Source of the DNA: Hyphomicrobiales bacterium
GTDB taxonomy: Bacteria; Pseudomonadota; Alphaproteobacteria; Rhizobiales; Rhizobiaceae
Length of the DNA stretch: 64,000 bases
Direction: 5' to 3'
Assembly: GCA_900473175.1 (NCBI GenBank)
Contig: UCKM01000014.1
Location: 1 to 64,000 of the forward strand
Notes under the pieces: model-generated
Database searches by the model: none
Told to the model about the DNA's origin: nothing
The model's input: the letters and a program-made list of their open reading frames with translations, nothing else
Shown: one piece after another, positions 4,142 through 61,226 of the stretch
How the letters are laid out: each line of letters starts with the position of its first letter
Numbering within the stretch: position 1 is the stretch's first letter
Position numbers and translations under genes: made by a program

Positions 4142-5746
4142 CTACTCCAGATCGAACGCCGCCGCCATCAGCGTCTTCGTATAGGCCTGATGCGGGCTAT
4201 CGAAGATGTCCTCGGTCGGTCCCTCCTCGACGATCTTGCCGTTCTTCATCACGATCACGTAGTCGGACATGGCCTTGATGACCGCAAGGTCGTGGCTGAT
4301 GAAGATATAGGACAGGTCATGCTTGTCCTGCAGATCGCGCAGGAGCTCGATGACCTGGCCCTGCACGGAGCGGTCGAGCGCCGACGTCGGCTCATCGAGG
4401 ATGACCACTTTCGGCTTCAGGATCACGGCGCGGGCAATGGCGATGCGCTGGCGCTGGCCGCCGGAAAACTCGTGCGGATAGCGGTTGCGCGCGGCCGGAT
4501 CGAGCCCCACTTCCTTCAGCGCGGCGATGGCTCGCTTGTCGCGCTCGGCGCGCGACAGTTGCGGCTCGTGGATGAACAGGCCCTCGGTGATGATCTCGCC
4601 GACGGTCTGGCGCGGCGACAGCGACCCATAGGGGTCCTGGAACACCAGCTGCAATTCGCGGCGCAGCGGACGCATCGCCGAGCGATCGAAGTTGGAGATG
4701 TTCTTCGAGCCGAAATGATAGTGGCCGCTGCTCGGCAGGAGCCTCAGCAGAGCCCGCCCCAGCGTCGACTTGCCCGAGCCGGATTCGCCGACGATACCGA
4801 TGGTCTGGCCACGCTTGAGCCGGACCGTGACCCCGTCGACGGCGCGGAACATGGTCTTGGCGCGGGTAAAGAACCCGCCGCCAATGGCGAAATCGACGGC
4901 GACATTGCGCCCCTCAAGAATGATCGGCGCGTTGTCGGCCGGCGGCTCCTTGGTGCCGCTCGGCTCCGCGGCGAGCAGCATCTTCGTATAATCCTGCTTC
5001 GGATTTTCGAAAATGTCCTTGATGCTGCCGCGTTCCACCACGTCGCCGCGCCGCATGACGACGACACGATCGGCGAAATGCTTGACGATGCCAAGATCGT
5101 GGGTGATGAGGACGATGGCCATGCCGAAGCGCTGCTGCAACGAGCGCAACAGGTCAAGGATCTGCGCCTGGATCGTCACGTCGAGCGCTGTCGTCGGCTC
5201 ATCGGCAATCAAAAGGTCGGGCTCGTTGGCGAGCGCCATGGCGATCATGACGCGCTGGCGTTGGCCGCCCGACATTTCATGCGGATAGCTGTTGATGCGC
5301 CGTTCAGGATCGGGGATGCCGACAAGCTTGAGCAGTTCCAGCACGCGGACCTTCGCCTGCTTGAAGGAAAGCCCCTTGTGGTGCACCAGCGGCTCGGCGA
5401 TCTGGCGCCCGATCGTATAGAGCGGATCAAGCGACGTCATCGGCTCCTGGAAGATCATGGTGATCTTCGAGCCGCGCACCTCGTTGAGGCCCTTGAGCGG
5501 CAGTCCGACCAATTCCTTGCCGCGATACTTGGCCGAGCCAGTGACCCTGCCATTGTTGGCGAGGAGGCCCATGATGCCCATCATGGTCTGGCTCTTGCCG
5601 GAGCCCGATTCGCCGACCACGGCCAGCGTTTCGCCCGGCTTCACATCGAGGTCGATGGTCTTGACGGCATTGACGTCGCCGTCCGGGGTGGTGAAGTCGA
5701 CTTTCAGTCCGCGTACGGACAGTACATATTCGTTCTTGTCCGTCAT
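4142..5746 (-). CDS. Peptide ABC transporter, fused two-domain ATPase (OppDF/YejF type)
   Basis: A protein of 534 residues with two complete ABC ATPase modules. The first has Walker [10 protein letters not shown], signature SGGQRQR and Walker [13 protein letters not shown]. The second has [16 protein letters not shown] and [12 protein letters not shown]. Each module ends like the OppD/DppD family. It energises the OppBC pore at the inner face of the membrane. The ATG at 5746 begins one base after the oppC stop; an upstream in-frame ATG at 5773 would overlap oppC and is rejected. It is the last gene of a leftward oppA-B-C-DF operon. Confidence 0.88.
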
Positions 5747-22877: not shown

Positions 22878-24206
22878 TTACTGCTTGATCTCCTCTGACC
22901 AGTCGCCCTCCGGCGTTCCATTGAAACGTTTGCGCAGGTCCTTCCAGCAATCGGCATAATTATCCTGCAGCGACGGCGCCTGCGCCGCAAAGCGGGTGAG
23001 ATGCTGCGGAAAGCGGGTCTCGAACATGAAGGCAAGCGTGTTCTCAAGCCGCTGCGGCTTGAGTTCGACTGTCGATGCCTTGTTGAAACCCATCGTGTCG
23101 GGTCCATGCGGTAGCATCATGTTGTGCAGGCTCATGCCGCCTGGCACGAACCCCTCCTCCTTGGCGTCGTATTGACCATACACCAGGCCCATGAATTCCG
23201 ACATGATGTTGCGATGGTACCAGGGCGGGCGGAAGCTATGCTCCGCCACCAGCCAGCGCGGCGGAAAAATCACGAAATCCACATTCGCTGTGCCCTCTTC
23301 ACCCGACGGCGCGGTGAGCACGGTGAAAATCGAAGGATCCGGGTGGTCGAACAGGATTGCGCCGACCGGCGAGAAAGTGCGCAGGTCATATTTATATGGG
23401 GCGTAATTGCCATGCCAGGCGACGACGTCGAGCGGGGAGTGGTCGAGCGTGGTTTCATAGAACTTGCCGCACCATTTGACATGCAGGCGGCACGGCACTT
23501 CCTTGTCCTCGAAGGCTGCGACCGGCGTCTTGAAATCGCGGGGATTGGCAAGGCAATTGGCGCCGATCGGGCCGCGATCCGGCAGCGCGAATTTCGCGCC
23601 GTAGTTCTCGCAGATATACCCGCGGGCTTCGCCGTCGAGGGCCTTGACCTTGACCACCATGCCGCGCGGAATGATGCAGATCTCCGACGGCTCGATATCG
23701 ATGATGCCCATCTCCGTGAAGACGCTGACCCTGCCCTTTTCCGGCACCAGTAGCATCTCGCCGTCGGCATTGAAGAAGTAATCGTCTTCCATGTCGCGAT
23801 TGAATGCATAGACGTGTGCCGACATCCCCACCTGACCGTGCACGTCGCCAGCCGTCGTCATGGTGCGGATGCCATCGATGAAATTAACCGGTTCTGCCGG
23901 CATGGGCGTGGGGTTCCAGCGCAACTGACCGATCGGCAATTCATGGTCATCGAGATTGGGGGCAGTCTTCCAGTGCTCGCGCTTTACCGGTGCGAACCGG
24001 CCGCTGTGCTTGACTGAAGGGCGGATGCGATAGAGCCAGGACCGTTCGTTGATGCCGCGCGGGGCGGTGAAGGGCGAGCCGGACAGCTGTTCGGCATAAA
24101 GCCCATAGGTGCAGCGTTGCGGCGAATTCTGGCCCTGCGGCAAAGCACCCGGAAGTGATTCCGTTTCGAAGTCATTGCCGAAGCCCGGCATGTATTGAAG
24201 AGCCAT
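22878..24206 (-). CDS. hmgA: Homogentisate 1,2-dioxygenase
   Basis: A ring-cleaving iron dioxygenase of 442 residues, converting homogentisate to maleylacetoacetate. It begins [23 protein letters not shown] with [25 protein letters not shown], diagnostic of HmgA. The iron site is in [29 protein letters not shown] and [12 protein letters not shown]. First gene of the operon; the ATG at 24206 has GGAGG upstream. It is divergent from a MarR-family regulator gene. Confidence 0.95.
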
Positions 24207-57568: not shown

Positions 57569-58342
57569 ATGAAAATAATCCAGGTGACCGATTTGCATCT
57601 CGTAGCGCCCGGCGAGACCTTGTGCGGCCTCGACCCGTTGGCGCGGCTCCAGGCCTGCATCGCGGATATCAACAGCAACCATGCCGACGCCGGGCTCGTC
57701 ATCTTCACCGGCGATCTGAGTGAGACCGGGGCGGAGGTTACCTACCGGTTCCTGGCGGATGCCTTGACGAAGCTCACGCTGCCTTTCCGGCTGATGCTGG
57801 GCAACCATGATGATCGAAATGTCTTTCTGCATGTCTTCGACGGCATTCCAACGGAAGGGGGGTTCGTGCAAAGCGTCGAAGATACCGCCGAGGGGCGGCT
57901 AATCCTGCTCGATACGCTTTTGCCTGGAAAGCCCGAGGGCAAGCTTGACGACGCGCGTTTGACGTGGCTGCGCCAGCGGCTTCAGGAGGCGAGGGGCAGG
58001 CCGGTATACCTTTTCTCACACCACCCGCCCTTTCCCATTCACATGCCGCTGCTCGACCGTATGGGCATCATTGAGGCCGAGCCGCTACACGCGCTGTTGG
58101 TGGAACACGGCGATGTGCGCCACATTTTTGCCGGGCATGCGCACAGGCCTATCGCTGGGAGCTGGCGGGGCATACCTGTGAGTGTCTTGCGCAGCACCAA
58201 CCATCAGTCGGCGCTCGATTTCTCACCGGACCGGATTGCAACGACGCACGAGCCCCCGGCCTATGCAGTGATCTTCATCGATAGGAACGGCGTGATCGCG
58301 CATTTCCATGACTTCCTCGACGAGACGGCCGCCTATCGCTGA
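57569..58342 (+). CDS. Calcineurin-like phosphodiesterase (class III cyclic-nucleotide/glycerophosphodiester PDE type)
   Basis: A metallophosphoesterase of 257 residues. Metal motifs: VTDLHL near residue 8, TGDLSETG, LGNHDD, HHPPFP and GHAHRP. The length and spacing match the CpdA/GpdQ family, which hydrolyse cyclic nucleotides or glycerophosphodiesters. The ATG at 57569 follows GAGG. It is last in the operon after the importer and LacI genes, so its substrate may be the imported compound. The end overlaps the convergent AraC gene by 10 bp. Confidence 0.82.
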   Translation: MKIIQVTDLHLVAPGETLCGLDPLARLQACIADINSNHADAGLVIFTGDLSETGAEVTYRFLADALTKLTLPFRLMLGNHDDRNVFLHVFDGIPTEGGFVQSVEDTAEGRLILLDTLLPGKPEGKLDDARLTWLRQRLQEARGRPVYLFSHHPPFPIHMPLLDRMGIIEAEPLHALLVEHGDVRHIFAGHAHRPIAGSWRGIPVSVLRSTNHQSALDFSPDRIATTHEPPAYAVIFIDRNGVIAHFHDFLDETAAYR

Positions 58343-58794
58343 CCGCCGTCGCCTTTGCCGGTTTGAGCCCGAATTTCCTCTGACGGCACGCGGGAGAACA
58401 TTGTGCGGTAGAGTTTGGAAAACCGGCCGGGATTGGTGAAATGAAACCGGGCCGCGACGTCCCGCACCGATGCAGCTTTTCCTTCCAAGATCAATTCGCG
58501 TGCGGCGGCCACGCGGAAGCTCATCAGGATTTTGACGGGGGTATCGCCATGGTACTTTCGAAACAGCCGCTGCAAGGAGCGCACCGTCAGCCCGGCAACA
58601 GCGGCGATATCTGCGATCGTGATCGGATTGTAGAGATTTTCGCGAATGAACGCTTCCGCAAGCTTCAATTGCCGCTGGGAATCTTTGGTCGGGGTGGCAA
58701 TTGGAAGAACATTCGGGCTCACAAATTGGCTGGTCTGCGCATCGGCCGGGCCAGAGGCTCTCCGCTCAGTTTCATGGGGCGTGTTATCGGTCAT
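58333..58794 (-). CDS. Short AraC-family regulator (DNA-binding domain only)
   Basis: A protein of 153 residues consisting of a low-complexity N-terminus (about 45 residues) and one AraC double helix-turn-helix (LAEAFIRENLYNPITIADIAAVAGLTVRSLQRLFRKYHGDTPVKILMSFRVAAARELILEG; VRDVAARFHFTNPGRFSKLYRTMFSRVPSEE). No ligand-binding domain is present, unlike the other two AraC proteins here. The ATG at 58794 is chosen; an earlier in-frame start at 58824 is possible. The target is unknown. Confidence 0.8.
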   Translation of the reverse strand: MTDNTPHETERRASGPADAQTSQFVSPNVLPIATPTKDSQRQLKLAEAFIRENLYNPITIADIAAVAGLTVRSLQRLFRKYHGDTPVKILMSFRVAAARELILEGKAASVRDVAARFHFTNPGRFSKLYRTMFSRVPSEEIRAQTGKGDGGQR

Positions 58795-58951
58795 TCTGGA
58801 TAACCCTGATCTGGTGCTGCTCAATCAATATGGTACGATGCAATCAATGGTAGTATTTGATTTTGTTTAAACGCGTGATTGCAGTGACGATAAATCAGCT
58901 GAAATCATTTGGAAATTCGACCTTAGAACTATTCGGCGGTCAATTTATTGT

Positions 58952-58967
58952 GTTGACAGCTGTCAAC
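58952..58967. promoter_or_regulatory. 16-bp palindrome, copy 1
   Basis: GTTGACAGCTGTCAAC is a perfect palindrome. The identical 16 bp recur at 59021, 69 bp away. Both lie in the gap between the short AraC gene and the L,D-transpeptidase gene. Confidence 0.7.
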
Positions 58968-59020
58968 TCTGAGGCCGTGCAATCTGTGATTGATTTTGGG
59001 GTGGTGCCCCCAGACGGCCG

Positions 59021-59036
59021 GTTGACAGCTGTCAAC
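59021..59036. promoter_or_regulatory. 16-bp palindrome, copy 2
   Basis: An exact second copy of GTTGACAGCTGTCAAC, 111 bp upstream of the L,D-transpeptidase start. Two identical sites 69 bp apart suggest cooperative binding or looping by one dimeric regulator. Confidence 0.7.
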
Positions 59037-59146
59037 GCCGTTGCCTGCTGCAAGGGTTAAGCCAGCCGGCTTCGCGATTCACTTTTTATAAACCACACTT
59101 CCTTACAATTTGCGGCAATTGCCACTAACTGTAAGCGAGTACCTCA

Positions 59147-59887
59147 GTGTCCCAGCGTAAACAGGCAGTCACATCCGCACTGCAGATACCGGCGATTTCC
59201 CGCCGCCAGATTCTGCTAGGCCTCGGCACCATCGCCGCGGCAGGCATGACCGGATGCACGCAGACGACATTCGAACTGCCGGAGATGAATATCGACCCGC
59301 TGCCGACCAGCGGAATTCGCCCGCAAATCAGCATCGACAAAGCGGTGACGCTTCCTGACGTAATGTATGCGGCCGTGCAGGAGGGGCCCTACTCGCTGCC
59401 AGCGGTACCCTATCAAAAGGTTCCGGCGCAATTCCGCCGGCAGATCGTGGTCGATCCGACCGGCGAGCGGCCCGGCACCATCGTTGTGAGCTTGCAGGAT
59501 CATTTCCTCTACCTCGTTCAGCCGGGCGGCGACGCCATCCGCTATGGTGTCGGTATCGGCAAGGCGGGGTTCCTGTGGAGCGGCCGAGCCAACATCCAAT
59601 ACAAGAAGGAATGGCCGCGCTGGACACCGCCACGCGAAATGATCGGCCGCAAGCCGGAACTTGCTAAATTCGAGAATGGCATGGAGCCCGGCCCGCAGAA
59701 CCCACTGGGCGCGCGTGCCCTCTATATTTTCAAGGATGGCGTCGATACCGGCTACCGCATCCACGGTTCGCCCGAGTGGTGGTCCATCGGCCAGTCCATG
59801 TCATCAGGCTGCGTACGCCTGATCAATCAGGACATTATCGACCTTTACAACCGCGTGCCGGGCAAGGCGACAGTTGTAGTTGGCTAA
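59147..59887 (+). CDS. L,D-transpeptidase (YkuD/ErfK family) lipoprotein
   Basis: A protein of 246 residues. The N-terminal RRQILLGLGTIAAAGMTGC has a twin-arginine-like start and a lipobox (AGMTGC, lipidated Cys about residue 37). The YkuD catalytic domain follows: IVVSLQDHFLYLVQPGG and, near the C-terminus, HGSPEWWSIGQSMSSGCVRL with the catalytic cysteine. It would form 3-3 peptidoglycan cross-links or attach proteins to peptidoglycan. GTG start with only a weak site. It is monocistronic behind two identical palindromes. Confidence 0.88.
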   Translation: MSQRKQAVTSALQIPAISRRQILLGLGTIAAAGMTGCTQTTFELPEMNIDPLPTSGIRPQISIDKAVTLPDVMYAAVQEGPYSLPAVPYQKVPAQFRRQIVVDPTGERPGTIVVSLQDHFLYLVQPGGDAIRYGVGIGKAGFLWSGRANIQYKKEWPRWTPPREMIGRKPELAKFENGMEPGPQNPLGARALYIFKDGVDTGYRIHGSPEWWSIGQSMSSGCVRLINQDIIDLYNRVPGKATVVVG

Positions 59888-60026: not shown

Positions 60027-61226
60027 ATGGTTTATGATTCTGCTCAACTGCCCATCAATGAACTGTTTGCGCCTGTCGTTGCAGCGGAGGACGCGTTGGC
60101 GCGCCTCGATGAAAGGGTGGGGCGCAAGGGTGACATTGCGGAGGCCGCCAACCGCCGGTCCCGGGACGAGTTGCTGCGTGAAGGAGAGGGCTGGATCGCC
60201 CGCTCGCATTTCCTGGAGGCATGCAACGCCCTTTGGCTCGCCGGCGAACTTGTCCATGTCGAAGATCTGGTGCTGCATGACGCCCGCATGGACATCCGCA
60301 CACCGACCCATGAACTGACGCGGTCGCACGCGATCCTGCGCAGCCGCCGCCAGATCGCAGCCAGACCACCAGGGTGGGCGCTCAGTCCGAATGGCATTGC
60401 AGCGCTGCGCGGCCGCGAAGGCCCCGACATTTTGATACGGACGGCTGAAACGGCGTCGCCTGTTCGGCCAGCGCCAAGCGCCAACGACGAAACCAGAACA
60501 TTGGCCGAGAACGAATTCGAGGATGGACTTGCCCGCCTCGATGCCTTGCTCAATCGCTCGTCCAAACTTCTGACGCAGTCAACACCGGCCGCCCCATCAA
60601 GGAAGGGGAGGGGTGAGCAGGTACCCGAGCCCGCAGAGACCACGCCGGACGGCGACCCGCTGGTCTACGATCCGGATTGGGATGAAGATGCGCGGCTCGA
60701 CCAATGGTTCAACGTGAATGAACGAAGCCGGGAGCTGCCGCCCTTGCTGGCAGCAGCCGTCGTTTGGGATGCCTGGGAGGAATTGGAGCCCTTGCAACAC
60801 CAGCATTGGCTTGGCCCTATGCTGGTTTCGGCCATGTTGCGCGAACGCGGAAAGACCAGATCGCATCTGGCTGCCTTCAATGCGGGCTTGCGCTCCATTC
60901 CGCGCGAACGCCGCCGTGCCCGGGATCGCACCACGCGGCTCCTTGCGTTCCTCGAAGCGGTGCATGGATCGAGCATGGCCGGCCTTAAGGAGGTCGAACG
61001 ACTGAGTCTGGCGCGCATGCAGATGGAGCGCAAACTAAAGGACCGCCGCTCGACGTCGAGTCTGCCCGGCATGATCGATCTCATCTTGTCGCGACCGATG
61101 GTGTCGACCGCCTTGATCGCAAAGGAACTCAAGGTTACGCAGCGCGGCGCGCTCAATCTCGTGGCCGAACTTGGCGTTCGGGAAATGACGGGCAGGGGGC
61201 GTTACCGCGCCTGGGGCATCGTCTGA
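60027..61226 (+). CDS. RHE_PE00001-family protein with C-terminal HTH (DUF1612-type)
   Basis: A protein of 399 residues of the rhizobial RHE_PE00001/DUF1612 family. It begins with a helical region (APVVAAEDALARLDERVGRKGDIAEAANRRSRDELLREGEGWIARSHFLEACNALWLAGELVHVEDLVLHDA), has a middle part rich in charged residues, and ends in a helix-turn-helix (LPGMIDLILSRPMVSTALIAKELKVTQRGALNLVAELGVREMTGRGRYRAWGI). The first ATG at 60027 lacks a good ribosome binding site. No enzyme motif is visible. Relatives are often on rhizobial plasmids; the function is not known. Confidence 0.7.
   Translation: MVYDSAQLPINELFAPVVAAEDALARLDERVGRKGDIAEAANRRSRDELLREGEGWIARSHFLEACNALWLAGELVHVEDLVLHDARMDIRTPTHELTRSHAILRSRRQIAARPPGWALSPNGIAALRGREGPDILIRTAETASPVRPAPSANDETRTLAENEFEDGLARLDALLNRSSKLLTQSTPAAPSRKGRGEQVPEPAETTPDGDPLVYDPDWDEDARLDQWFNVNERSRELPPLLAAAVVWDAWEELEPLQHQHWLGPMLVSAMLRERGKTRSHLAAFNAGLRSIPRERRRARDRTTRLLAFLEAVHGSSMAGLKEVERLSLARMQMERKLKDRRSTSSLPGMIDLILSRPMVSTALIAKELKVTQRGALNLVAELGVREMTGRGRYRAWGIV

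Follow-up and report, generated by a model that had tools for sequence, protein, structure and literature searches.

The window, by which we mean the whole 64-kb stretch analysed here, covers the opening 64 kb of C26, a contig of 175,805 bases that may be only part of its replicon. An AraC-type HTH protein gene on the minus strand (58333 to 58824, PF12833) is separated from the L,D-transpeptidase gene ykuD on the plus strand (59147 to 59887, YkuD domain PF03734, GTG start at 59147) by an unstranded intergenic region (58825 to 59146) with a G+C content of 45.7%, compared to 59.1% for contig C26. A RHE_PE00001 family gene with DUF1612 and HTH_13 follows ykuD on the plus strand (60027 to 61226). 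Two candidate parS copies, neither assigned to a strand, lie in the intergenic region at positions 58952 to 58967 and 59021 to 59036, and each is the perfect palindrome GTTGACAGCTGTCAAC. Closer to ykuD is the plus-strand block TTTATAAACCACACTTCC (59085 to 59102), which was found at -58 to -63 of ykuD in all 18 loci of the core Phyllobacterium group. The original prediction was right about the types of both flanking genes and about the location of the palindromes between them. Its gap length of 352 bp was replaced by 322 bp when starts at 58824 and at the GTG at 59147 were used, the difference being due to the choice of start codon.

The two GTTGACAGCTGTCAAC copies are 69 bp apart, start to start, and are identical and perfect over 16 bp, in agreement with the earlier description. 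They were the only matches to the 16-mer at three or fewer mismatches in the 64-kb window, where 0.17 matches were expected from shuffles, and a chance repeat is indeed unlikely. The 14-bp core of the word was found at just two places in the whole assembly (4,879,185 bases, 4.88 Mb). At two or fewer mismatches, the 16-mer matched 13 places in the assembly, both exact copies included; a reversed control word matched eight. No sigma-70-like promoter passed a consensus scan of positions 58780 to 59200, which bears out the previous statement that the palindromes are not accompanied by a promoter.

A full-text search of the open literature for the 16 letters returned a match in PMC9040568 only. This paper gives GTTGACAGCTGTCAAC as the parS of pAMI4, a repABC megaplasmid of Paracoccus aminophilus, and the evidence described there consists of a RepB gel shift, incompatibility, and stabilisation in cis (PMC9040568). 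Both copies in the window have the same letters as this RepB-bound site, and both fit the repABC parS consensus GTTNNCNGCNGNNAAC as quoted in PMC9040568. Deletion of the distal three-parS cluster of pAMI4 is described as having lowered plasmid stability and dispersed the RepB signal (PMC9040568). When the pAMI4 DNA was re-read, we counted four exact 16-mers, one between repB and repC and three at the distal locus. According to the passages of PMC9040568 on this subject, published Rhizobiales parS sites are nearly always within or adjoining repABC, and exceptions exist.

Contig C26 carries repA, repB, and repC in line on its minus strand at about 166.6–170.5 kb. The products RepA (TIGR03453), RepB (TIGR03454), and RepC (NF040974) all scored above the NCBIfam cut-offs. 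The repB gene, at about 168.1–169.2 kb, is 109 kb from the palindrome pair. The rest of C26, including the repABC region, contained no further match to the 16-mer at two or fewer mismatches and one place at three mismatches. Another perfect GTTN4GCN4AAC palindrome was found neither on C26 nor on two complete Phyllobacterium replicons, and thus the pair represents the only such candidates on C26. Cumulative GC skew of C26 and the two complete replicons had no extremum at the pair and no clear origin–terminus pattern. The density of GANTC (CcrM) sites near the pair was ordinary, with the fraction of 2-kb windows that were as dense or denser amounting to 0.22 for C26 and to 0.11 and 0.25 for the two complete replicons.

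We assessed conservation of the palindromes in genomes and in 65 fetched ykuD loci. The core word was present in all 20 same-genus genomes (the window's included), in six of the 51 genomes from the rest of the family, and in none of the 48 from other families in the order. Both sites were detected upstream of ykuD in 16 of the 65 loci, all of them from the core Phyllobacterium group, which comprises 18 loci (the window, L049–L064, and L073). Together with the window, there were 17 loci with the pair: 11 with both sites exact and six with one site exact and the other at one mismatch. The core-group member P. endophyticum (L057) had no palindrome at ykuD. No site at three or fewer mismatches was detected in 48 of the 65 loci, mostly from Brucella, Bartonella, Mesorhizobium, and their relatives. 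P. leguminum (L065) and P. salinisoli (L107), which bear the genus name, possessed neither the sites nor the block at -61, and the tally becomes 17 of 20 when they are counted. The expectation that the 16-mer would be found upstream of transpeptidase orthologues held for these 17 of 20 Phyllobacterium-type loci and failed for the 48. Ten genomes whose ykuD loci had no pair were searched whole; the exact word was recovered in P. endophyticum and Pseudaminobacter salicylatoxidans, while the whole genomes of P. leguminum and P. salinisoli, which keep ykuD, contained no 16-mer anywhere.

In the 17 loci with the pair, both sites were kept at 15–16 of 16 bases. Their start-to-start spacing varied between 36 and 272 bp and the spacer could not be aligned; the 16-mers formed nearly invariant columns. 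In the aligned loci, the ykuD-proximal site began 93–136 bp from the start of the gene. A lack of conservation or a random placement in coding regions, either of which had been named as fatal to a functional role, was not seen; conservation of the sites is strong and of the kind expected for a centromere. Block TTTATAAACCACACTTCC behaved differently from the palindromes. It was present at two or fewer mismatches in 18 of 18 core-group loci and had at least five mismatches in the other 48 loci. The block was also kept at about -61 in P. endophyticum (TTTATAAACCACATCTGC at -61), whose ykuD is without a palindrome; the likely ykuD promoter region has no need of the palindromes. In our view, the block probably belongs to the promoter or leader of ykuD, independently of parS.

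The palindromes follow RepB, not ykuD. A RepB of the C26 type (59–78% identity) was detected in 19 of the 20 same-genus genomes, the window's counted. The pair and this RepB were on one contig in 13 of the 19 genomes, 51–265 kb apart in contig coordinates, and on separate draft contigs in the remaining six; some of the drafts and complete records in these counts are the same assemblies. Six complete Phyllobacterium replicons, ranging in size from 286 kb to 1.59 Mb, each had the pair in front of ykuD as their sole match at one or fewer mismatches, and the RepB, 59–78% identical to that of C26, was 77–166 kb away by record coordinates. For NZ_CP017944.1, the distance between the pair and RepB was 132 kb in one direction and about 154 kb in the opposite direction. 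NZ_CP104967.1 encodes a second RepB, which is 36% identical. Two of the six replicons have been described as repABC plasmids (PMC12451606); a term search of the main text of that paper returned no mention of parS. The record NZ_CP088275.1 (L151, 519,835 bp) is named pT1293a in the record and pT1293c in the species paper.

The single same-genus genome without a C26-type RepB was that of P. endophyticum (G006, best match 50%), and this exception to the co-inheritance with the cognate RepB is also the genome with a lone detached copy of the word. Its one 16-mer (C6:388420) adjoins an AraC-type gene, and its ykuD (C6:567.1–567.8 kb) is located beside a RHE_PE00001 gene about 179 kb from the 16-mer.

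Outside the genus, we detected 25 exact copies of the 16-mer in 14 genomes (six of the family and eight of 397 order genomes, the window's own left out), a count that omits Pseudaminobacter G472. Of these copies, 21, in 11 of the 14 genomes, were within 4 kb of repABC genes, and several were immediately upstream of repA or at the repA–repB junction. The proposed search of related genomes for the 16-mer and its downstream genes yielded, outside the genus, neighbours that were mostly repABC. The four copies off repABC were the two of G047, one in G314, and one in G342; the G342 copy is within a reading frame on a 4.87-Mb contig. The flanks of the two 16-mers of G047 (C1:558652 and C23:220017; L027 and L168) were unlike each other, and no RepB gene was found near them. 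G064 has three copies beside a RHE_PE00001 gene and a repABC operon with a RepB from a different parS clade; the C26-clade RepB of this genome is encoded on another contig than the 16-mers. A further copy is present in G472 at the repA–repB junction of an operon whose RepA, RepB, and RepC share 83, 55, and 55% identity with the C26 proteins; a RHE_PE00001 gene is immediately past its repC. Relatives of the RHE_PE00001 gene of the window thus adjoin repABC operons with GTTGACAGCTGTCAAC in G064 (50% identity) and G472 (48% identity), and the presence of this gene near GTTGACAGCTGTCAAC may be left over from an ancestral repABC gene order. The RHE_PE00001 family genes are at positions 60027–61226 of the window, L165:7415–8620, and L286:1841–3100.

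The relationships among the RepB proteins were assessed with a maximum-likelihood tree of 44 rows, from which L115 and L140, with no RepB match, and G472 were left out. All 44 rows came from genomes or records picked for holding the 16-mer, and for this reason only operons carrying the word themselves bear on the clade. The tree came with a long-branch warning for rows that included pAMI4, G449, G065, and G047. The 19 Phyllobacterium RepBs formed one group (support 100/100), nested in a clade of 26 rows (97/87) together with G028, G033, G042, G065, G217, G152, and G064-C13. The first six of these seven have GTTGACAGCTGTCAAC at their own operon. The RepBs of replicons with the words GTTCTCAGCTGAGAAC and GTTGTCCGCGGACAAC formed separate clades of three rows each (100/100 and 99/98, respectively). 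pAMI4 with G449, and the trio G420, G396, and G455, possessed the same 16-mer and distant RepBs. The word is therefore used by more than one RepB lineage and does not identify any single RepB.

Taken together, the comparisons make it very probable that the pair is parS, i.e., the centromere-like sites of a secondary replicon of the repABC type that includes C26, detached from the operon in Phyllobacterium. This reading is based on identity to a validated parS, the co-occurrence with one RepB type, the proximity to repABC outside the genus, the position, and the conservation. With similarly high confidence, ykuD and the AraC-type gene can be regarded as neighbours of the sites and not as their targets, although the distance of 93–136 bp leaves room for the proximal site to have an effect on ykuD. 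Several points count against the parS reading: the pair is 51–265 kb from repABC, unlike nearly all published Rhizobiales parS; pair and RepB are on separate draft contigs in six same-genus genomes; four of the 25 copies outside the genus are off repABC; the copies of G064 adjoin an operon with a RepB of a different clade; the word also goes with distant RepBs; and ykuD is retained with no copy of the word in P. leguminum and P. salinisoli. The original prediction had interpreted the palindromes as regulator sites and not promoters; the appearance of a protein-binding site stands, whereas the tie to transpeptidase regulation is not supported, given the exact match to a repABC parS, the RepB-linked distribution, and the -61 block, which all 18 core-group loci retain, that of P. 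endophyticum with no palindrome included.

In ParAB–parS systems, RepB dimers bind parS, spread along the adjoining DNA, and build a partition complex, which RepA then moves. From the sequence comparisons, we infer that the pair serves as the functional centromere of the replicon and that the RepB of C26 binds the 16-mers. In such a scheme, RepB (ParB family), encoded 109 kb away, would occupy each 16-mer in dimeric form and seed a partition complex there, and RepA (ParA family ATPase), encoded in the same operon, would move the sister copies apart. Detachment of parS would remove RepB–parS contacts from repABC autoregulation, and the origin region would be copied before the centromere.

We weighed this reading against several others. 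An operator pair for a transcription factor controlling ykuD, perhaps together with the divergent AraC-type gene, was the initial view, and it would account for the divergent intergenic location, for the pair preceding ykuD in 17 of the 20 loci of Phyllobacterium type, and for the proximal site being 93–136 bp from the ykuD start. Sites of this kind could be expected to stay with their target gene, but the pair was kept in 16 of the 65 ykuD loci, all from the core Phyllobacterium group, and was missing at three or fewer mismatches in the remaining 49, one of which is that of P. endophyticum. The 48 loci with no site at this threshold include P. leguminum and P. salinisoli, the palindrome of G006 is about 179 kb from ykuD while the -61 block is kept, and neither the spacing nor the phasing of the sites is conserved. 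Given also that the word is mostly at repABC outside the genus and that its full length equals a published parS, we regard an operator as extremely unlikely. Among specific regulators, LdtR deserved attention because, in Liberibacter and Sinorhizobium, this MarR-family protein activates an L,D-transpeptidase gene, and in related Rhizobiales it controls the L,D-transpeptidase gene ldtP (PMC3999280, PMC5481520). The footprinted LdtR site in these papers, ATATTCCTTGTATTTTAA, is AT-rich and by eye unlike the 16-mer, and the gene beside ykuD is of the AraC type, not MarR; an LdtR/MarR operator was rejected because its site is AT-rich, and the chance that the pair represents LdtR sites is close to nil. 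A MarR-family scan of the genome returned 38 matches. Crp/Fnr, TetR, and GntR operators, suggested by the shape of the half-site, were dropped once the link to RepB was found.

Two further explanations accept the sites as parS in origin. Dual use, with RepB spreading from parS to dampen or time ykuD and so linking partition to the cell envelope, would fit the presence of one site close to ykuD in 17 loci, and RepB and parS are described as joining in repABC autoregulation in some replicons (PMC4492784). Set against this are the separation of ykuD from the site in G006, the absence of a fixed geometry, and the description of TA1 plasmids in which parS is not mandatory for strong repABC repression (PMC4492784), and we find dual use unlikely. 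Alternatively, the pair could be a relic, an ex-centromere kept by chance while another site near repABC acts as the functional parS. The distance of 109 kb to repABC and the lone detached 16-mer of G006, a genome without a C26-type RepB, could be explained in this way. A relic would not be expected to retain 15–16 of 16 bases at both sites in 17 loci with a changing spacer between them, and no other perfect GTTN4GCN4AAC palindrome is available on C26 or the two complete replicons; we consider it very unlikely.

If the pair is parS, its closest counterparts are parSBC and 3parS of pAMI4, with an identical 16-mer, and the parS sites of A. vitis chromosome 2. The canonical Rhizobiales positions are upstream of repA, at the repA–repB junction, or in repB, and GTTGACAGCTGTCAAC occupies such positions in G028, G033, G042, G065, G217, G152, and G472; the pair in the window differs from these by its position. 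Like the pAMI4 cluster, it consists of several intergenic copies off the operon, with the partition proteins coming from repABC. pAMI4 has one parS between repB and repC as described, whereas the C26 operon has none, and the pAMI4 cluster comprises three copies in a 2-kb region 11.5 kb from repC, compared to two copies within 322 bp at 109 kb here. The sequences of the two RepBs are distant in the RepB tree. A GANTC cluster is described in print for 3parS of pAMI4, whereas the pair has no unusual GANTC density. On A. vitis chromosome 2, similarly to C26, two far-off parS repeats are combined with an operon without parS and are kept among relatives (PMC9040568). The A. vitis repeats are 30–90 kb downstream of repC in a non-coding region of 1.5–2.4 kb (PMC9040568), whereas the pair is 51–265 kb off in the short gap between the AraC-type gene and ykuD, and the likeness is drawn from the published description. 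A degenerate third site is described for A. vitis chromosome 2, while no third site at two or fewer mismatches was detected on C26. In being A+T-richer than its contig, the intergenic region in the window resembles the published detached parS loci.

Detachment as such therefore has precedents in pAMI4 and A. vitis chromosome 2; a Phyllobacterium precedent was not found in the literature. In the open literature, no paper was found that joins Phyllobacterium with parS and centromere. The published parS survey was not among the literature on Phyllobacterium and repABC, and its supplementary tables may list Phyllobacterium replicons. The parS reading would correct a tempting misreading of palindromes before a cell-wall gene. 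It would also mean that centromeres at a distance from repABC, an exception that has received little study, are found across most of a genus for which complete genomes exist.

A second parS-like word was detected in the source genome (G000), where contig C25 has a pair of GTTCTCAGCTGAGAAC at 23917 and 23965, 48 bp apart (C25:23917–23980; L160:4918–4981). The RepB gene of C25 is 253 kb from this pair, and none of these parS words was found in the 15 kb read around the C25 repABC operon. GTTCTCAGCTGAGAAC was present in 13 of the 20 same-genus genomes, partly as scattered single copies. In G007 (two copies) and G013 (one copy) it immediately precedes repA, and the distance from the pair to RepB is 185 kb in G006 and 267 kb in G014. 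The RepBs of G000, G006, and G007 form one clade; G013 and G014 are outside the tree. As judged from the letters, a single RepB lineage has the putative GTTCTCAGCTGAGAAC parS adjacent to the operon in one genome and detached in two. Because this second replicon type includes adjacent as well as detached parS, moving parS within one genus becomes a way to test why some repABC replicons detach their centromere. We tentatively propose, as a possibility rather than an expectation, that Phyllobacterium detached centromeres more than once (the nearly genus-wide GTTGACAGCTGTCAAC and the GTTCTCAGCTGAGAAC type), as a selected trait of large domesticated replicons that would uncouple segregation from repABC autoregulation and put off duplication of the centromere after initiation. 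Contig C20 of G000 (L162) contains GTTGTCCGCGGACAAC palindromes at 5608 and 7694, inside repB and upstream of repA, which are probably the parS sites for a further repABC replicon in this cell.
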